Source: Clostridiales bacterium (GTDB lineage Bacteria > Bacillota_A > Clostridia > Oscillospirales > Oscillospiraceae). From it: a DNA stretch of 20,862 nucleotides. Under the pieces are notes generated by a model. It searched no databases. It saw nothing but the letters and a program-made list of their open reading frames with translations, and was not told where the DNA came from. The stretch lies in contig DXUR01000014.1 of assembly GCA_019417795.1 (NCBI GenBank), positions 1-20,862 of the forward strand, in the 5' to 3' direction. A program made the translations under genes and the position numbers. Shown in pieces: positions 11,284-20,862 of this stretch (position 1 is its first letter; the number at the start of each line of letters is the position of its first letter).

Positions 11284-11325
11284 AAGTCCTATTCTGGGGA
11301 TATTACAATCTCTGGAATAGGACTT
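11284..11325 (+). terminator. Terminator-like hairpin closing the polyvalent operon
   Basis: AAGTCCTATTC pairs perfectly with GAATAGGACTT, and the stem continues inward with GC and wobble pairs to about 18 bp around a 6-base loop (11302-11307). Only GTTT follows rather than a long T-run, so termination may be partial. It separates the polyvalent operon from the XRE cassette. Confidence 0.65.
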
Positions 11326-11375: not shown

Positions 11376-11390
11376 AATGTTGACAACAAT
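11376..11390. promoter_or_regulatory. Operator-like palindrome over the -35 box
   Basis: AATGTTG-A-CAACAAT is a palindrome with six of seven base pairs matching, covering the TTGACA box. A second inverted repeat, ATGC-N7-GCAT (11389-11403), fills the spacer up to the -10 box. Such sites over a promoter just upstream of an XRE gene usually serve autorepression; binding is inferred. Confidence 0.45.
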
Positions 11391-11408
11391 GCAAAATAAG
11401 CATATAAT
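11380..11408 (+). promoter_or_regulatory. Consensus sigma-A promoter of the XRE-ImmA-PIN cassette
   Basis: TTGACA (11380-11385), 17-base spacer, TATAAT (11403-11408): a perfect match to the housekeeping consensus. Transcription would start near 11415, followed by AAGGAGGG (11421-11428) and the ATG at 11435. Confidence 0.88.
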
Positions 11409-11434
11409 GAAAGTACACCAAAGGAGGGATTTGA

Positions 11435-11815
11435 ATGCTGGATGTAAACATGATGATTGCGAACAATATTCAGAATCAACTGAAAAAGGAAAACAAGAAA
11501 CAAATTGATCTGGCAGAAGGAATCGGAGTATCCCGGCAGACTATGAGCAAAATTATGAATGGAGCAAGAGCAATCAATGCGATTGAGCTTCATAAAATTT
11601 CGGAATACCTTCATGTTCCGATGGAAACCCTCATGAAAATGCCGGAACATCCGGTAGATACAAATGTTATCCATGCTTTCATGGGGCGGGTTAAGACACC
11701 GGAAGCACGAAGAGGAATCCAGATTGCAGATGAACTTTCAGATATGATCCTTTTCCATACAAAAGTGTATGAGAACGGAAAAAGAATGGAACAACCATGG
11801 GAGGATAACGAATGA
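11435..11815 (+). CDS. XRE/Cro-CI type HTH regulator (putative antitoxin or immunity repressor)
   Basis: A 126-residue protein; ATG six bases after AAGGAGGG. Residues ~8-65 form a Cro/CI helix-turn-helix (KKQIDLAEGIGVSRQTMSKI, then a tyrosine/leucine-rich helix ending LMKMP). The C-terminal ~60 residues (ARRGIQIADELSDM) match no domain I know and may bind the partner protein. It leads a three-gene unit and overlaps the ImmA-type gene by ATGA. Palindromes over its promoter suggest autoregulation. In ICEBs1 an analogous HTH protein (ImmR) is cleaved by an ImmA peptidase; here it could also serve as antitoxin of the cassette. Both readings are inference. Confidence 0.85.
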   Translation: MLDVNMMIANNIQNQLKKENKKQIDLAEGIGVSRQTMSKIMNGARAINAIELHKISEYLHVPMETLMKMPEHPVDTNVIHAFMGRVKTPEARRGIQIADELSDMILFHTKVYENGKRMEQPWEDNE

Positions 11816-12630
11816 AAGGTGTTTTAGAAAACAGCTTGTTTGAAACCCAGCCGCACAAGTTTGAACACCTGAATGAGTTGACACGGCAGTTTGCAACAAT
11901 CTACTGCGGAAATTCTATTGTGAAAGACAATATTTTTGCTGTAATAGAAAATTATGCACGGAAAAAGAAAATCCCTTTGGAAATTTTGAGATTTCCTATC
12001 CAGGATGAAGAACTATGGGCAATGACGTTCCTGAAAAAAGGAACGATTTTTGTATGTGTTAATTCAGAACTGGCGTTATGCAAACAGTTCTTTGCGGCAG
12101 CACATGAACTATATCACATTTATTGCTATGTCGAAGATGCTGACCAAAGTTATATAAAAAATGGCTCGATGCTGGATTCTGATACGGCGAATGAGACGGG
12201 AAAGACACAGGAAGATGTAGAGGCAAACGCATTTGCAGGATTGCTCCTGATGCCGGATCAGCTCTTATCGAATCAAATCGACCTGTTTGGCATAGATAAA
12301 GATGATATGGATACGGATTCTGTGTTGTCCTTGATGGATATGTTTGCGATTCCTTACAAAGCAACCGTGTTGAGATTGTATGAGAGCAACTGTATCAAGC
12401 GGCACAAGGCAGAAGAACTTTTTCGTGTTACAGCGGAAGATGTGGCAAAAAGGGTAGAACTGACCGGAAAAGCAAAGCGTTGGCAGCTTGATGGATCGGG
12501 GACAGAATCTTTCGGGACACTTTTAGAAAAAGCAGATTATAATACTGAGCATAACTATTTGACAGAGAGCAGAGAAAAGGAAGATTGGAAATACATCTCT
12601 GAACTGAAAAAAGAGCTTGGTATGGATTGA
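11812..12630 (+). CDS. ImmA/IrrE-family metallopeptidase
   Basis: A 272-residue protein starting in an ATGA overlap with the XRE gene. Zinc motif H98-E-L-Y-H102 sits in FFAAAHELYHIYCY, and a downstream helix EDVEANAFAGLLLMP carries the expected third ligand, the classic ImmA/IrrE layout. Residues before ~60 and after ~150 are helical; the C-terminal third (~200-272) is highly charged. Proteins of this family cleave an associated HTH repressor or act as the effector in XRE-peptidase pairs. Its position directly after an XRE gene fits either role. All catalytic residues are present, so an active enzyme is likely; the substrate is inferred to be the adjacent XRE protein. Confidence 0.87.
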   Translation: MKGVLENSLFETQPHKFEHLNELTRQFATIYCGNSIVKDNIFAVIENYARKKKIPLEILRFPIQDEELWAMTFLKKGTIFVCVNSELALCKQFFAAAHELYHIYCYVEDADQSYIKNGSMLDSDTANETGKTQEDVEANAFAGLLLMPDQLLSNQIDLFGIDKDDMDTDSVLSLMDMFAIPYKATVLRLYESNCIKRHKAEELFRVTAEDVAKRVELTGKAKRWQLDGSGTESFGTLLEKADYNTEHNYLTESREKEDWKYISELKKELGMD

Positions 12631-12640
12631 GAGGTGTCCA

Positions 12641-13453
12641 ATGAAGATGGAAAAATATGCCTTGCTGGACACGGACTTTATTTCAAAAACTCATTTCATT
12701 CAAGGAGACACCGAAAAAAGTCTTTCAGATTTTGTCGTGGAAATGCCAGGTTACTGCTTTTTCTGTCATAGCCAAATCATCAAAGAACTGAGCCGTCATA
12801 ATCAGCAGGCGATTGGTTGGTTACAACACAAAATCAGCGAACAAAAAATACAGTGTTATACAGATGAAGAAATTCTGAATGAACTTGTAAAGATTCGCGG
12901 CGATTTTGCTTGTAGCACATATACGTTGATGTTGAAGGACGCTTGCGATGCTTTTTCAAAATCGTATTTCAAAGAACACTATCAAACGCTTGAAAATTTT
13001 GATATTGTGACCTCTACGAAACAGGATTATTTGGAAACTCTTCAAAAAGCGGATGATGAGATTGGAAAACATAACAGCTTGGGCGAAATAAAGTCGTATG
13101 TTTTGTTACAGTTACTTTCTTTGCTGAAAGGCGAGCAGGTGTATGTGTTCTGCTCCGATGATAAGGCGGCACGAAATGGAGCTATCAGCTTCAACAATGT
13201 ACGGTGTATCAGTGCATTATCGGCATTCTTGAGGTTGAAGAAAGAAATCTCGTGGACATTTGATGCAGCGGAACCATATATAAATTCTTATGTTCAGTTC
13301 TGCAAAGAGCATAATCAACAGACATTCAGAGTAATGGAAGCATCTGATGTTCCCCGGATGCAGAGAGTTCCCTGCAAACAGGCGTTGGAAGAAATATTTC
13401 TGGATCGCTTTGTGGAATTACAAAATGGTTTCTTGAGATACAGGGATACTTAA
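12641..13453 (+). CDS. PIN-like putative ribonuclease of the XRE-ImmA cassette
   Basis: A 270-residue protein. The frame is open from a TTG at 12617, but ATG 12641 has a ribosome site (GAGAGG, 12629-12634) and leaves a normal 10-base gap after the ImmA stop. The N-terminus ALLDTDFISKT gives paired acids D10 and D12, as in PIN domains. ELSRHN near 50 offers an early glutamate, LGEIKSY holds E149, and VFCSDDKAARNGA holds D173/D174. Order and spacing fit a PIN-like Mg-dependent nuclease, though the protein is about twice the usual VapC length: there is a helical insert between ~60 and ~140 and a C-terminal extension of ~70 residues. It is the last gene of the unit, ended by a strong terminator. 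A toxin or defence effector is inferred; a non-nuclease PIN relative cannot be excluded. Confidence 0.68.
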   Translation: MKMEKYALLDTDFISKTHFIQGDTEKSLSDFVVEMPGYCFFCHSQIIKELSRHNQQAIGWLQHKISEQKIQCYTDEEILNELVKIRGDFACSTYTLMLKDACDAFSKSYFKEHYQTLENFDIVTSTKQDYLETLQKADDEIGKHNSLGEIKSYVLLQLLSLLKGEQVYVFCSDDKAARNGAISFNNVRCISALSAFLRLKKEISWTFDAAEPYINSYVQFCKEHNQQTFRVMEASDVPRMQRVPCKQALEEIFLDRFVELQNGFLRYRDT

Positions 13454-13470
13454 AGACTAAAAAGTGCAAG

Positions 13471-13520
13471 AGCCACCATAGGCTTACCCAGTGATGGGGT
13501 AGCTTATGGTGGCTTTTTTT
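13471..13520. terminator. Bidirectional terminator between convergent cassette and mob genes
   Basis: AGCCACCATAGGC pairs with GCTTATGGTGGCT, and the stem extends inward through ACCC/GGGGT with one bulge, about 18 bp in all. On the plus strand it is followed by seven T (13514-13520). Read on the minus strand it is followed by CTTGCACTTTTT. It lies 17 bases after the PIN-like stop and abuts the relaxase stop at 13523, so it can end both transcripts. Confidence 0.92.
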
Positions 13521-13522
13521 GC

Positions 13523-15130
13523 TTAAAGGGTCTGCTCTGTGCGTTGAACGTGATCTCGAATGTGGTGCTGTCCCAAGATGTTGTCAACATTGGCGCAGGC
13601 TGTTCGTAATTCTTTCTGATAATCTTTATAATAGGTATAGGTGTCGTACTGAGCCGCTTTCAAGGCAAGCAACCGTTCTTTTTCAAGCTTCAAATCTTTC
13701 ATCTTCGGAAGTGAGTCGTCTGGATTTTGTGCTTTCAGAATCTGGACGGCTTTTTCATGCTTCTCAATTTCATCGGCATGATCCTTGCGGAATTTTCCTT
13801 TGAAGCAAGCTTTCAAAAATTCATTGTAGGTGGATTTTGTGGAAAGGTACTGACCCAGATAGTGAATCTGCTCGTTTACAGATTTGATTTGTGCTTCAGT
13901 GTCCTTTGCCTTTTGCCGTGCATCGTGCATCTGCGAGGTGATGCTATCGTAGGTTGACTGTAAATTTTCTCTGGTGTCAAATCCGTTTTCCTGAATGTAA
14001 GCTACGGTCTTTGCCATCTGCTGAAGATTGGAAATTTTAACTTTTTGAGCATAAGCCCTACTTTGCTGAGCCTTGATGCAATTCTGCAAGTCCACAACAA
14101 GACGCAAATCAGAGCGAATGAAGAGAATGGCAATCGGGTCTGCATGGTAATCGGGCATGGTCTGTCGTTGCTTTTCTTCTTGCTCAGCAGCAAGTGCATT
14201 GGCTTCAAAAAGATTGAGCAAATAATCTTTATCAAAATTTGTGCCTAAAGAGCGACCAGAAATGTACTTCTCTCGCTCTGGATGCAGATAGCTATATCTT
14301 TCCCGATTTTCTTTCACATGAATCTTATACTTTTCAAATAACTGGCTTTGAAAATCTTCAAACGAAATTGCGGAGGAAGAAATCTCTGAAACGGCATTCC
14401 GAACAAACTGCTTACGAGTCTGAAATGTTGTTTCCATTGGATTCATGCCATCAGCAATGATCTGTTCGTTTATATCTTCCAGCTCTTTCTGCCCTCGCTT
14501 TTGCAACCAGTATTCAGCTTCAGTGATTTTATGTTGAGCCGGAGAGAGAAGATCGACCTGATACAGATTTTCACGCTGGCATAGATTCATAAGTTCTTGC
14601 TGTAAGTATTTTAGATAATCTTTTGTCAGGTGATGTTTGTATCCTGCTTTGCAGTCAATGCTGCGTGTGGTGTATGACTGTGGCTCTATGTCCAGTTTCC
14701 GTAAGCTGTTGATTATGATATGAACATGGATGTTGCCACTGCCATTATGTCCATCCGTGTGAGTACAGACCAATGCTTGATGGCCGGGAAGATGATTCTT
14801 CACAAATTCAAGTCCCAGAGCTTGTGCTTTCTCGCCAGTAAGATTGTGCTCGTCTTTATCGCGCGGATCAAAACTGATGATATAGTGATGGGACTTGACT
14901 TCATCATATCGGTAGTTTTTTCGATACTGGTCATTGAGCATTTCGCACTCAAGATCAAAGGTGTCGGGATTGCAGTTTACTCCATTCATGTGAAATTCGC
15001 TGCGGAGCATCATGCTCCCGTTTTCATCAAGGAGCGGTTTTAAGTGTCGTTCATCATGCTGATATTTCAAATAGCAGACTGCCGCACTGTAATCAGCGTT
15101 TTTTATTGCGATGTGTTTTAACACGGCCAT
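13523..15130 (-). CDS. MOBP-type relaxase (MobA/MobL-like)
   Basis: A 535-residue protein that nicks oriT and pilots the transferred strand. The N-terminal ~200 residues are the relaxase domain: N-terminal tyrosines Y14 and Y20 are candidate nucleophiles, HHYIISFDP at 81-89 is a core strand, and the metal motif runs H124-T-D126 ... N133-I-H135-V-H137. The region ~150-330 is typical of the Clostridia relaxase group (RSIDCKAGYKHHLTKDYLKY). From ~340 to ~500 it is charged and predicted coiled coil. The start codon lies inside the end of mobC (38-base overlap) with AGGGGGA upstream on the minus strand, so the two genes are co-transcribed and probably coupled. No C-terminal primase or helicase domain is seen. 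The sequence is intact. Confidence 0.92.
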   Translation of the reverse strand: MAVLKHIAIKNADYSAAVCYLKYQHDERHLKPLLDENGSMMLRSEFHMNGVNCNPDTFDLECEMLNDQYRKNYRYDEVKSHHYIISFDPRDKDEHNLTGEKAQALGLEFVKNHLPGHQALVCTHTDGHNGSGNIHVHIIINSLRKLDIEPQSYTTRSIDCKAGYKHHLTKDYLKYLQQELMNLCQRENLYQVDLLSPAQHKITEAEYWLQKRGQKELEDINEQIIADGMNPMETTFQTRKQFVRNAVSEISSSAISFEDFQSQLFEKYKIHVKENRERYSYLHPEREKYISGRSLGTNFDKDYLLNLFEANALAAEQEEKQRQTMPDYHADPIAILFIRSDLRLVVDLQNCIKAQQSRAYAQKVKISNLQQMAKTVAYIQENGFDTRENLQSTYDSITSQMHDARQKAKDTEAQIKSVNEQIHYLGQYLSTKSTYNEFLKACFKGKFRKDHADEIEKHEKAVQILKAQNPDDSLPKMKDLKLEKERLLALKAAQYDTYTYYKDYQKELRTACANVDNILGQHHIRDHVQRTEQTL

Positions 15131-16344: not shown

Positions 16345-17994
16345 ATGTTTTTTCAGGAAAATGGACAATATCGCTGTGCTGTGTATCTTCGATTGTCACG
16401 TTCGGATGGCGATCAGCAGGAAAGCAACAGCATCAAAAATCAAAGAGCTTTACTGAATGATTATCTGGGAAAGCACCCGGAACTGCATAAGGTCGATGAG
16501 TATGTAGACGATGGATACAGTGGTACGAATTTTGAACGCCCGGATTTTAAGCGGATGATGCAGGACATTGAGAAAAGGAACGTCAACTGCATCATCGTCA
16601 AGGATTTATCTCGTTTCGGCAGAAACTACATTGAAACGGGTCGTTATCTGGAAAGAATCTTTCCATTCATGGGTGTCCGCTTCATCGCCATCAACGATCA
16701 TTATGACAGTGCAGAGGAAAACGATGATAAGGGTCGTATTCTGATTCCGTTCAACAATCTTATCAATGACACCTACTGCCGGGATATTTCGCTGCGCGTT
16801 CGCAGTCACTTGGATGTGAAACGAAAAGAAGGTCAGTTCATTGGCAGCTTTGCAGGATATGGGTATCAGAAAGACCCGAAAGACAAGAATCATCTGATTA
16901 TAGATGAATACGCTGCGGGCATTGTGCAGGAAATATTCAAACAGAAATTGAACGGAATGAGTTCACAGCGCATTGCCAGTCACTTGAACGAACTGGGTGT
17001 CCTGCCGCCGAACGAGTATAAGAGAGCCAATGGATTCAACTATACCTGCGGTTTTCAGGCTGGGCTGAATCAGAAGTGGACAGTGGTTTCCGTCAATCGT
17101 ATTTTGAAAAATGAATCCTATACGGGAACATTGATTCAGGGTAAACGCAGGAAAATCAATTACAAAGTAAAAAAGAGCCATGATGTTGGAAGTGAAAACT
17201 GGATTCGGGTGGAAGATGCGCATGATGCCATTATCAGCAAAGGCGAGTTCCAGCAAGTACAACAGTTATTGGAACTGGACACTCGTACCGCACCATCGCA
17301 GACAACAGTTTATCCATTATCAGGTTTTCTGCGCTGTGCAGACTGCGGGCAGAATATGATTCGCCGCACGGTGACGAAAAACGGGAAGAAGTATCAATAC
17401 TATCACTGCTCTACCTATAAGAATGGCGGCGGCTGCACACCGCACATGATAAACAGTGAGAAGCTGACGGAAAGCGTTCTGGCTGCGATTCGGCATCAAG
17501 TGACACTTCTTGTAGAAGCGGAAAAGGTACTCTCCAATGCAGAGTTGGCAAGCGGCGAACAGATTGGCATAAAGATTCTGGACAGCCAGATCACTGCGCT
17601 GGAAGCTGAATTAGAACGGTACAGTAATTTGAAAATCCGTCTGTATCAGGACTTATGCGATGATGTTGTCAGTCGGGAAGAGTACGGAGAAATGAATACT
17701 CGCTTTGCGCAGAAGATAAAAGAGGCACAGGATAAGATTCAGGAAATCCGCGAAAAGAAGCAGGAGGCATTAAAGCACGACACACTGCTTCCTACTTGGT
17801 TGGAAGAATTTAAGCAGTACGAACATATCAAAACGCTCGAACGCAGGGTCGTGGTGGAACTGATCGACCACATAGATGTTCATAGCAAAACAGAGATTGA
17901 AATTCATTTCTGCTTCGAGGATGAACTGCACAGTATCACAGAAAAATTTATGGAATATCAAGCACATCACGGAAATGAGGTGGCAGAGGAATGA
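16345..17994 (+). CDS. Large serine recombinase 1 (TnpX/TndX-like)
   Basis: A 549-residue site-specific recombinase. Resolvase catalytic domain ~9-160: YLRLS with catalytic S18, DGYSGTNFERP, and DLSRFGRNYIE carrying the active-site arginines. The recombinase domain at ~170-310 ends with the NRILKNESYTGTLIQGK stretch. A complete zinc ribbon follows, with C331, C334, C355 and C364, then a coiled coil ~395-475 and a C-terminal segment with VVVELIDHIDVHSKTEIEI. All expected parts are present, so it should be active in excision and integration. It is the first of three genes, overlapping the second by ATGA. The start is fixed by lack of another in-frame start with a ribosome site; the leader is structured. 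Confidence 0.95.
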   Translation: MFFQENGQYRCAVYLRLSRSDGDQQESNSIKNQRALLNDYLGKHPELHKVDEYVDDGYSGTNFERPDFKRMMQDIEKRNVNCIIVKDLSRFGRNYIETGRYLERIFPFMGVRFIAINDHYDSAEENDDKGRILIPFNNLINDTYCRDISLRVRSHLDVKRKEGQFIGSFAGYGYQKDPKDKNHLIIDEYAAGIVQEIFKQKLNGMSSQRIASHLNELGVLPPNEYKRANGFNYTCGFQAGLNQKWTVVSVNRILKNESYTGTLIQGKRRKINYKVKKSHDVGSENWIRVEDAHDAIISKGEFQQVQQLLELDTRTAPSQTTVYPLSGFLRCADCGQNMIRRTVTKNGKKYQYYHCSTYKNGGGCTPHMINSEKLTESVLAAIRHQVTLLVEAEKVLSNAELASGEQIGIKILDSQITALEAELERYSNLKIRLYQDLCDDVVSREEYGEMNTRFAQKIKEAQDKIQEIREKKQEALKHDTLLPTWLEEFKQYEHIKTLERRVVVELIDHIDVHSKTEIEIHFCFEDELHSITEKFMEYQAHHGNEVAEE

Positions 17995-19520
17995 AATGGG
18001 TCAGTTATACAAGGTCGATTTCCAGCAGGATCGGAGAAGAAAATCCATCCAATACGATTGCGGAGCAGAATGAGCGCATTGCACGGTATCTAAAAAAGCT
18101 TGGGTGCAACGTATCTGAAAAATACAGTGACCGAAAGAGAACAGCAGAAGCCACAGAGGGCTTTGACAAATTGGTACAGGATGGGATGGCTCGGAAATTT
18201 GATGCAGTTGTTGTGGATTCTATCTTCCGCTGTGGAAGAACCCTTCCGTTTGCCATTGAAGCACTGCAGAGGACGTTCTATCCGCTTGGTATCCAATTTG
18301 CAGTTGTGGAAGATGACTTTTGCAGCATAGACAAAACTGCCGAAGAAGTTGCAGAGTATTTCAATGGAAAGACCATTGATAAGATTCGTTCGGAATTTAT
18401 TACCAATCGCCAGAATCACTTTGAAGAAGGTACATTGACCCATCGACAGGCTAAATATGGTTATGCGCTGTCGGAAGATCGCAGAAGCCTTGTTCTTAAT
18501 CCTGAAAGCGCACAGGTTGTAAAGCTGATTTTTCAGATGTATCTGGAAGATATGAAAATCCCGGAAATCGCAAGAGCATTGGATGCACAGGGCGTTCAAA
18601 CACCGCAAGTCCAGATGGCAAAGAAAAAAAGATCAAGAACAAAAAATAAGTGGCAGGATTCAACCATTCGCTCGATTTTGAAAAATCCACTCTATATCGG
18701 AAAGTGTACGCTGACACTGGCAAAGGCAAAGCGAGAATTGGAGGTTCCGGCGATTGTTTCAAAGACGGAATTTCAGAAAGCCCAGAAAAAATTGGAATCT
18801 ACGAGGTTGCCTTCGAGGAAAAAGGTACGAAAAAAGCCAAACCTGCTCTTCAAAAAAATCTATGACAAAGAAAGTAGAAAAGGTCTGTTGTGCAGAACAT
18901 CGGAAGATGAAAGTCAGCAAGTTTATTCGTTTGACAGGGGGTATAGATGCTTCTCTGGAAAAGCCCCTTTCATCGAAAGCGAGAAAATCTACCGAGAGAT
19001 TCTTTCAGCTTTGGGAAAAGAAAAAATGCAAGCTGCGCATATTGATAAGGTGCTGGACTTGAATCCTGAGAAAGTCAAGCAGTGCATGGATGCTGGACTG
19101 TTGCAGTACAGAAAAAGAGCAAATGAGATCGTTGCGCGCTTGATGGCCAAGGACGATGAACGAATAGCGGTTTATCGGGAATACGAGCAGGGATCAATTT
19201 CACTAGAACAGGTAGAGGCGTATGAACATCAGTATCAGGTGGCAGTCCAGAAGCAGGAAGATGCCTTTAAAAAGATAATGCTGGATGTTAATGATATAGA
19301 AAAAGCATTTAGCCATGGGAATCCCTGGTTGATGAAGTTCCGAGCGATTTCAATTCCTGAAACGTTGGAGCGCACACATCTTAAAGAATGGCTTGACCAT
19401 GTATGGATCGTAGATTTTGAACAAGTAGAAGTGATCCTACAAGAAAGTGAGTGGAAGGAATTCTTCCCGGAAGAATGGCTGAACAACGGAGAGGAAGATT
19501 GTAATGGCAAGAAAGAGTAG
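17991..19520 (+). CDS. Divergent serine recombinase 2, atypical active site and no full zinc ribbon
   Basis: A 509-residue protein starting in an ATGA overlap with recombinase 1. The overall layout is that of a large serine recombinase: N-terminal resolvase-like domain (~3-140), recombinase domain (~165-275, with STIRSILKNPLYIGKCTL), then a charged C-terminal half. At the active-site strand it reads Y6-T-R8-S9-I10-S11, so the position of the usual serine (Y-x-R-x-S) is isoleucine, with serines on both sides. The DGYSG/GFTG motif is missing and DLSRFGR is replaced by DSIFRCGRT. In the zinc-ribbon region only two cysteines remain (LLCRTS and GYRCFSG). It may be a non-catalytic partner that forms mixed complexes with the flanking recombinases, or a subfamily using a shifted serine. 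The frame is intact, which argues for function. Confidence 0.87.
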   Translation: MKWVSYTRSISSRIGEENPSNTIAEQNERIARYLKKLGCNVSEKYSDRKRTAEATEGFDKLVQDGMARKFDAVVVDSIFRCGRTLPFAIEALQRTFYPLGIQFAVVEDDFCSIDKTAEEVAEYFNGKTIDKIRSEFITNRQNHFEEGTLTHRQAKYGYALSEDRRSLVLNPESAQVVKLIFQMYLEDMKIPEIARALDAQGVQTPQVQMAKKKRSRTKNKWQDSTIRSILKNPLYIGKCTLTLAKAKRELEVPAIVSKTEFQKAQKKLESTRLPSRKKVRKKPNLLFKKIYDKESRKGLLCRTSEDESQQVYSFDRGYRCFSGKAPFIESEKIYREILSALGKEKMQAAHIDKVLDLNPEKVKQCMDAGLLQYRKRANEIVARLMAKDDERIAVYREYEQGSISLEQVEAYEHQYQVAVQKQEDAFKKIMLDVNDIEKAFSHGNPWLMKFRAISIPETLERTHLKEWLDHVWIVDFEQVEVILQESEWKEFFPEEWLNNGEEDCNGKKE

Positions 19521-20862
19521 AAAGAATATGATGCCGCAGGCTGCTGTGCAGGAGGCCGTACAGCAAAACGAAAAAGAACTTCTGCGCACGGCGGCGTATG
19601 CGCGGCTGTCGGTTGAGAACGGCGGGCATGAAACAGAAGATTCTCTGCACACACAGATTTTGCAAATTCATAATTATATCAGGGAAAACCCGGAACTGAC
19701 GCTGACCGATACCTATGCAGACAACGGTTTTACGGGAACACGTTTTGACCGGCCAGAATTTGAGCGTATGATGCAGGATGTGCGGACAGGTAAAATTCAG
19801 TGCATTGTAGTGAAGGACTTATCTCGGTTTGGTCGTGACTATATCGAAACGGGAAGCTATCTGGAAACTATTTTCCCGATGCTCCATGTTCGTTTTATCG
19901 CCATCAACGATGATTTTGACAACATCCGGCAGTCGGATGTGGATAGTCTTGCGGTTCCCATCAAGAACATGGTAAACAGCTTGTACGCTAAGGACATTTC
20001 AAAGAAAATCAGCCTTAGTTACCAGATGCGCCGCGAAAAGGGAATCCCTACATCGTGGTGTACACCGTATGGCTATCAGTTGAACCAACAGGGAAATAAG
20101 TTTGAAGCGACTGAGGATGCGAAGTGGGTCAAACTGATCTATCAATGGTATCTTGCAGGAGTGAGTACAAACGAAATTGCTCGCAGGTTGGAATTTTTAG
20201 AAGTAGCAAGGCCGAACGAACGGCTGAATCGCAAATTACATGAGGGAGATGACCCTACCTATAATAAATGGCACCCCAGTACGGTTCTTCGTATTTTAAA
20301 CAGCAGTGCCTATATTGGAGAACTGGTATCTGGGAAAACGCAAACTGCATCATACAAAGGGATTGGCCTCCATCCAGTGGAAAAGAGAGAATGGCATATT
20401 GTTGAAAACGCTCATGAAGCAATCATTCTGAAATCGGATTTTGAAAAAGTGCAGGCACGGCGGGAGCAGAATAAGGAAAAACGGGAAAGGGCGATGGCGC
20501 GTTCCAAGGCAACCAGAGAGAAGTGTTATAACCATCTATCAGGAATGGTTTACTGTGGCTGCTGCAGACGCAACATGACGTTTGAACGGCGTGTGCATGG
20601 TACGGTAAAAGAAACGCACTATGGAGTGTTCATTTGCAAAAAAAAGAAGAACACGACTCCCTGTGCCTATCATGCGGTGCCGGAGAAAATGCTGATGATG
20701 GTGGCGATGGATCAGATTCGTCATCTGGTGTCTACCATGTGTGAAGAAGAAAAGATGGTAAAAGACATGATGCGCGGCAGCAATCTGGATTCAGCCCGTT
20801 CCATCAAGATGAAAGAAAACTCTATCCTGTTTCGGATTCAGGAAGCCGAAGAACGGCGGCTG
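19504..20862 (+). CDS. Large serine recombinase 3, 3' end beyond window
   Basis: ATG at 19504 lies 9 bases after GGAGAGG (19488-19494) and 17 bases inside the end of recombinase 2. The frame stays open for 453 codons to the last base. Catalytic domain: YARLS with S36, NGFTGTRFDRPEF, DLSRFGRDYIETG. The recombinase domain holds PYGYQLNQQGNK and STVLRILNSSAYIGELVSGK, and the zinc ribbon reads VYCGCCRRNM ... FICKKKK ... TPCAYH. It resembles recombinase 1 more than recombinase 2. A 30-residue extension precedes the catalytic domain. The missing part should be the coiled coil and C-terminal tail. Together the three genes form one co-translated recombination module. Confidence 0.93.
   Translation, partial: MARKSRKNMMPQAAVQEAVQQNEKELLRTAAYARLSVENGGHETEDSLHTQILQIHNYIRENPELTLTDTYADNGFTGTRFDRPEFERMMQDVRTGKIQCIVVKDLSRFGRDYIETGSYLETIFPMLHVRFIAINDDFDNIRQSDVDSLAVPIKNMVNSLYAKDISKKISLSYQMRREKGIPTSWCTPYGYQLNQQGNKFEATEDAKWVKLIYQWYLAGVSTNEIARRLEFLEVARPNERLNRKLHEGDDPTYNKWHPSTVLRILNSSAYIGELVSGKTQTASYKGIGLHPVEKREWHIVENAHEAIILKSDFEKVQARREQNKEKRERAMARSKATREKCYNHLSGMVYCGCCRRNMTFERRVHGTVKETHYGVFICKKKKNTTPCAYHAVPEKMLMMVAMDQIRHLVSTMCEEEKMVKDMMRGSNLDSARSIKMKENSILFRIQEAEERRL

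Follow-up and report, generated by a model that had tools for sequence, protein, structure and literature searches.

The window analysed here, a stretch of 20,862 nucleotides from a Clostridiales bacterium (contig DXUR01000014.1), carries a mobile element of gut-type bacteria in which a cassette of three genes, xre, immA and pin, lies between an operon of polyvalent-protein genes and the mobilization (mob) genes (Table 1). The cassette encodes an XRE-family DNA-binding protein, an ImmA/IrrE peptidase and a protein with a predicted PIN fold. It is hypothesized to be a mobile three-component module of the toxin-antitoxin type, in which a peptidase activated by single-stranded DNA (ssDNA) would free a PIN ribonuclease, with anti-phage growth arrest as its cargo function; we put the probability of this reading at about 0.65. 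The mechanism is probable in view of the predicted folds, the linkage of the three genes across genomes and the one-sided loss of pin.

Proteins of the cassette

The third protein has a PIN fold in its AlphaFold2 (AF2) model (predicted local distance difference test score, pLDDT, 91.5), and acidic residues D10, D12, E49, E149, D173 and D174 are invariant in alignment A1, which holds the window protein and 93 of the 97 proteins of 255-285 aa among the 120 matches listed of 367. Predicted fold and conserved acidic residues together place it in the PIN superfamily. Because sequence searches of the PDB with this protein returned no PIN relative, the fold assignment rests on the predicted model. 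The family comprises 367 database proteins at E <= 0.001. Its window member has no significant match in Pfam, NCBIfam, PHROGs or PADLOC (best E 0.005), and none of 94 aligned family members scored better than E 0.0025 against Pfam. Plasmid records searched for relatives held none, phage records held one (a 4-kb record without annotation), and a single-protein viral scan gave no match. Further alignments were A2 (the query and 30 of the 120 matches listed of 392), A3 (37 rows) and A4 (25 rows), the rows of the last two being picked from the loci.

The window peptidase, with the motif HELYH, matches Pfam Peptidase_M78 (E 1.5e-11) and the PADLOC model PDC-M69B (E 6.6e-47), followed by capP (E 3.3e-13); models of RmrA match it weakly (best 1.1e-6). 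Its predicted structure is nearest to CapP and then to PprI/IrrE in the fold comparison, and these proteins are reportedly ssDNA-activated proteases that cleave repressors. Elsewhere, three XRE-peptidase-like pairs in a single genome (G397; loci L063, L067 and L068) have a degenerate HEXXH motif, such as YELYE, with no PIN match in the flank examined; to judge from these motifs, they may be pseudo-peptidase regulators.

The XRE protein matches Pfam HTH_3 (E 3.4e-10), and its best PADLOC name is PDC-M69A (E 1.6e-21); matches to PDC-M69A and PDC-M69B are graded here by E value, as PADLOC's own cut-offs are not known to us. In its C-terminal part, the motif FMGxV is unchanged across all 25 XRE proteins of alignment A4, and FMG is present in three of the four PDC-M69 loci looked at. 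The motif is a candidate protease site, on the model of the FR motif in VapB52.

Upstream of xre, part of the relatives carry two 17-bp dyads, GTAAC-N7-GTTAC, 41-42 bp apart, the second of which lies over the -35 box. A dyad pair scoring at least 15/20 at 42 bp occurs in 12 of 40 upstream regions, and spacing sums are highest at 41 (508) and 42 (491) among spacings of 20-69, with 29 (482) next. Autoregulation of the operon by XRE is likely. A stretch of the xre promoter, AATGTTGACAACA, recurs exactly once more in the window, and at up to two mismatches there are six matches against 0.85 expected. The further exact copy (13579-13591, minus strand) falls inside the coding end of the relaxase gene; it is a possible second XRE site, but this is coding sequence and a chance match is possible.

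Linkage of the three genes and one-sided breakage of pin

A pattern-based scan with the PIN alignment, of a kind that misses distant relatives, found 40 loci in a collection of species genomes and six in a viral collection (numbered with the prefix L). Although the loci were found through PIN alone, 27 of the 40 genome loci have full-length xre, immA and pin in the same order. In these complete loci the spacing is tight, from -8 to +3 bp between xre and immA and from -4 to +24 bp between immA and pin; gene starts for this and for the substitution rates below were set by hand from alignments. All six viral loci hold the complete cassette, one of them (L041) being identical to genome locus L006 in all three proteins. 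Between-locus distances of the three proteins correlate (r 0.94-0.97), and the ratio of nonsynonymous to synonymous substitution rates (dN/dS) of intact PIN copies is 0.05-0.35 in the seven of eight pairs that could be scored, with dS saturated in some.

Searches of whole genome sets, which overlap each other and the 40 loci, gave a similar range of forms. A PIN search of 392 genomes of one order matched eight, comprising five full PIN genes with full xre and immA, two broken PIN genes (G006, G206) and one fragment. A peptidase search of 397 genomes of one family matched 14, ten of them closely (E <= 1e-60); among the nine close genomes with enough sequence, five have a full PIN gene and four a broken or absent one (L061, at a contig edge, was excluded from this count). 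Four of 189 genomes of another order gave a match, two carrying the full close form.

Loss within the cassette is one-sided. Nine of the 40 genome loci combine a damaged PIN gene with a full-length peptidase (L021, L023, L031, L032, L033, L037, L038, L039 and L040), four have both damaged or missing (L030, L034, L035 and L036), and none of the 40 keeps an intact PIN gene where the peptidase or XRE is damaged or missing. Six of the nine PIN-broken loci retain a full XRE; at L032, whose peptidase lies at a contig end, no XRE was found, and at L037 and L040 the start of XRE is without a match. The PIN lesions (L021, L023, L030-L040) are recurrent, differing internal deletions or frameshifts. At least six of the nine are internal deletions with different end points, so several of the losses were probably separate events. 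The two genes are nearly equal in length (pin 813 bases, immA 819 in the window), and on that footing a 9:0 split has p = 0.004, a statistic that ignores kinship and assembly error. The choice of search anchor was considered as a source of this bias, but loci that had lost immA and kept an intact PIN gene would have been recovered too, PIN itself being the anchor. This is the pattern expected if free PIN protein is harmful and XRE or the peptidase restrains it, and PIN looks like the costly part of the cassette, kept in check by its neighbours.

Layout of the window and genomic contexts

Table 1. Features of the cassette and its borders (window positions; strand as in the window).
Feature	Position	Strand	Basis or value
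Hairpin 3' of the upstream polyvalent-protein operon	11284-11325	+	-25.4 kcal/mol, z -6.9; no T-run after it
Palindrome TGTTGACAACA, 11 bp, across the -35 box; possible XRE operator	11378-11388		Sequence
Sigma-70-type promoter, TTGACA (11380-11385), 17 bp, TATAAT (11403-11408)	11380-11408	+	12/12 consensus
Ribosome binding site AAAGGAGGGA	11420-11429	+	Sequence
xre, Cro/C1-type helix-turn-helix (HTH) protein, 126 aa	11435-11815	+	Pfam HTH_3, PADLOC PDC-M69A
immA, ImmA/IrrE (M78) peptidase, HELYH, 272 aa, CapP-like fold	11812-12630	+	Pfam, PADLOC, predicted model
pin, PIN-fold protein, 270 aa	12641-13453	+	AF2 model, fold matches, A1 conservation
Hairpin with T-run between the convergent pin and relaxase genes	about 13466-13522	both	-37.6 kcal/mol, z -8.2 (+); -29.6 kcal/mol, z -6.6 (-)

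The sequence-only reading of this DNA had described three genes with a perfect promoter, coupling by ATGA and a strong hairpin on either side, and all of these are present as described. The first two open reading frames (ORFs) share four bases at their ATGA coupling. The start of pin was set at the ATG at 12641 and its stop at 13451-13453, the ORF list having taken an upstream TTG at 12617. Since no run of T lies behind it, the upstream hairpin is weak as an intrinsic terminator, and a simple terminator scan of the window picked up neither flanking hairpin. Promoter-like matches of all strengths in the window are no commoner than chance (6 against 6.8 expected from shuffles).

Neighbour annotation likewise agrees with the location given in that reading, between polyvalent and mob genes. 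On one side lie TTRAP, YodL/LPD18/DUF4316 and a large ArdC/LPD polyvalent protein, and on the other a convergent MobA/VirD2 relaxase gene and a NikA/MobC-like protein, then three serine recombinases. These recombinase genes follow in succession at 16345-20862, and the last extends beyond the window.

To compare contexts, 31 of the 46 loci yielded 123 neighbouring proteins, of which 96 were scanned. Among the 25 of 112 Pfam and 25 of 65 PADLOC families listed, which are not assigned to individual proteins, were two Cas1, two type I-F Cas3, two terminase small and two terminase large subunits, along with two-component regulators, MatE and hydrolases. By ORF size, the type I-F cas neighbours were assigned to L010 and L022, both in Selenomonas relatives, where the cassette apparently stands directly before the cas genes; L081, which is the L022 locus again, has a cas1-like ORF after pin in the ORF reading. 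The same kind of reading places phage terminases beside the cassette at L031 and L056. After the L033 cassette lies a match to a type IV restriction enzyme model (3.4e-176).

Other elements were compared at the relaxase. More than 30 relaxase places were found, of which 30 became loci; all 30 were compared and the ORFs read in seven; the same polyvalent-gene end lies within 1.5 kb beside the relaxase in two of the 30. The slot from the DUF4316/LPD end to the relaxase is occupied by an Abi_2 gene in one of them (L099, 2.4e-50) and by a PBECR4 nuclease in the other (L100, 9.9e-33). The slot thus accepts different cargo, in both cases of kinds tied to phage exclusion or RNA cutting, and is a possible defence cargo slot in these elements. 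Given the varied neighbours and the other genes found in the same slot, the cassette is probably cargo and not the switch of the element.

Related systems and proposed mechanism

CapH and CapP are said to regulate an operon of the cyclic oligonucleotide-based anti-phage signalling system (CBASS). The window peptidase resembles CapP as a metallopeptidase, by model and by fold comparison, but the sole further gene of the window unit encodes the PIN protein; among 13 window proteins scanned, no Pfam match to a CD-NTase or CBASS effector was obtained, and the unit ends with pin.

A close separate-gene relative is PDC-M69, which has the same gene order of XRE, ImmA/IrrE peptidase and PIN-like protein, and whose A and B models match the window proteins. 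Its C model is of 188 aa, in contrast to the 270 aa of the window protein, and gave no match at E <= 1 for that protein or for the PIN proteins of L002 and L027. PDC genes are termed phage defence candidates in the accessible part of PMC11514479. In more remote XRE-peptidase pairs the third gene is a different PIN-like one. At L064 and L065 the third protein is of about 190 aa, and L064 matches PDC-M69C (5.1e-82; its xre 1.1e-45, its peptidase 6e-111). Among 200 genomes of the family, 11 match the PDC-M69C model, four strongly (E <= 5.4e-74) and with the full three-gene set, and each of the seven weak matches has a peptidase-like match nearby. At L066, L082 and L083 a further XRE-peptidase pair is joined by a protein of about 310 aa in which PIN-like motifs were read by eye; the 310-aa proteins of L066 and L083 reached no Pfam cut-off when scanned. 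L078 has a fused XRE-peptidase beside a DUF4411 PIN protein, which is the VapBC52 type. Three assignments of the window PIN protein were considered and set aside, the similarity in each being read as shared PIN motifs only: PDC-M69C (profile comparison of the families, E 0.15), the clade of 310-aa proteins (E 0.012 across 40 columns of a two-row alignment; BLASTP 0.12) and DUF4411 (a single DUF4411 sequence compared with A1 gave E 0.076 across 23 columns). The DUF4411 Pfam model has no window match at E <= 1 and reaches two of 94 family members at E <= 0.1 (best 0.0037).

In VapBC52 (Rv2515c-Rv2514c), self-cleavage of the XRE-peptidase antitoxin is triggered by ssDNA, tRNA is the target cut by the PIN toxin, and overexpression of the toxin in M. 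smegmatis raised phage resistance, according to the accessible part of PMC13273310. There too an XRE and an IrrE-type peptidase control a PIN toxin, but as one fused protein instead of two, and the PIN is likened in that part to DUF4411 proteins, whose model the window PIN does not match. In the portion consulted, Makarova et al. 2009 (PMC2701414) predict a three-component system with the same parts and logic, whose COG2856 protease would cleave the Xre repressor or antitoxin of a PIN or RelE toxin; this is a general prediction, and the window's PIN family is not named in that portion. PD-lambda-2, RosmerTA (RmrA/RmrT) and PIN partners of ImmA antitoxins have been described (PMC9519451, PMC10440598); as far as the available text goes, PD-lambda-2 and RosmerTA are anti-phage and likewise place an ImmA-type antitoxin or XRE-peptidase next to varied toxins, but the ImmA part is often fused to an HTH and the toxins are others. 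No paper treating the split three-gene form or naming PDC-M69 was found in the open-access literature searched, and other literature may hold one.

In resting cells, XRE would sit on the operon's own promoter and keep the unit low, perhaps also restraining the PIN protein by direct contact. A build-up of ssDNA, from phage replication, DNA damage or possibly conjugative entry, would activate the CapP/PprI-like peptidase, which would cut XRE and derepress the operon. Free PIN ribonuclease would then accumulate and cut RNA, by analogy tRNA, and growth would stop. The likeliest benefit would be an arrest of growth against phage, with integrative elements and prophages carrying the unit as cargo. 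A bolder version, to which we would give somewhat less than even odds, sees an uncharted anti-phage system of gut Clostridia in which phage- or conjugation-derived ssDNA turns on the CapP-like protease, which destroys XRE as both repressor and direct inhibitor and frees a new family of PIN ribonucleases. The slot between polyvalent operon and relaxase would be a defence cargo slot, and hosts would shed the cost by deleting PIN internally, the retained XRE and protease acting as an antidote against incoming copies.

Several observations weigh against the proposed mechanism. No toxicity, cleavage or phage data were found for the window PIN protein or the cassette family. With Foldseek alone, the PIN protein had no PDB match at E <= 0.001, the best (0.048) being a PIN domain. 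Structural matches hardly cover the C-terminal part of the predicted peptidase, so that the comparison says little about a putative ssDNA-sensing surface. Among the 40 upstream regions, the GTAAC-N7-GTTAC pair is absent from the window promoter and from its nearest relatives, L001 and L002; the window has the palindrome over the -35 box in place of the dyads, and autoregulation there would depend on this different palindrome. Errors in draft assemblies or normal gene decay could explain part of the PIN breakage, and not every locus is independent of the others. The contexts of the cassette are mixed, and nine of the ten large neighbours scanned singly, all but that of L033, had no PADLOC match at E <= 1e-15.

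The same biochemistry could instead serve addiction, with retention of the mobile element and not phage arrest as the pay-off. The window cassette does lie on an integrative element and others lie beside phage terminases, and XRE and peptidase are mostly retained where PIN is broken; however, some copies adjoin type I-F cas genes or a type IV restriction enzyme, two related elements have Abi_2 or the PBECR4 nuclease in the same slot, and a sensor-type protease would exceed the needs of a simple addiction pair; we regard this alternative as unlikely. Very improbable is a switch of the ImmR/ImmA type, in which XRE would repress transfer and excision genes, the peptidase would relieve this upon DNA damage and PIN would be an accessory. 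The window shares with it neighbouring XRE and ImmA genes on an integrative element, and such pairs control ICEBs1 and TnSmu1 in the accessible text of PMC10233336, but the unit is bounded by hairpins, its relatives occur in differing surroundings, with cas genes or terminases next to some of them, and two related elements hold other genes in that slot. Hardly probable at all is the reverse assignment, with XRE or the peptidase toxic and PIN neutralising or modulating it. It draws on PD-lambda-2, where overexpressed XRE-peptidase was toxic and a HigB-like partner rescued (PMC9519451, part available); loss of PIN would then be harmful, yet PIN is lost while XRE and peptidase are mostly kept.

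The model in which XRE represses, the peptidase cleaves and PIN is released had already been offered by the sequence-only reading, and it agrees, by analogy, with the nearest relatives that have been tested and with PIN being the part that is lost. That reading also took the third protein to be PIN-like and the cassette to be cargo of the element, and the predicted fold, the varied contexts and the contents of L099 and L100 bear this out; neither of the outcomes it named as contrary, a structure without a PIN fold or a third gene beside unrelated neighbours in most genomes, was seen. Its view that the arrangement matched no named system did not hold, given the 2009 prediction, the sister form PDC-M69A/B/C in PADLOC-DB and the characterised fused VapBC52, in so far as the accessible parts of the two papers describe them. 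The architecture is already known, as a prediction and, in fused form, by test; the window cassette is an uncharacterised split variant with its own PIN family. It adds to the group of repressor-protease-nuclease systems a compact version with three separate proteins, each individually testable. The split form would let derepression be told from destruction of a bound antitoxin as the route of PIN release, which is hard with fused VapB52, and it brings in a PIN family of hundreds of proteins whose window member fits no existing model of the four profile collections significantly.
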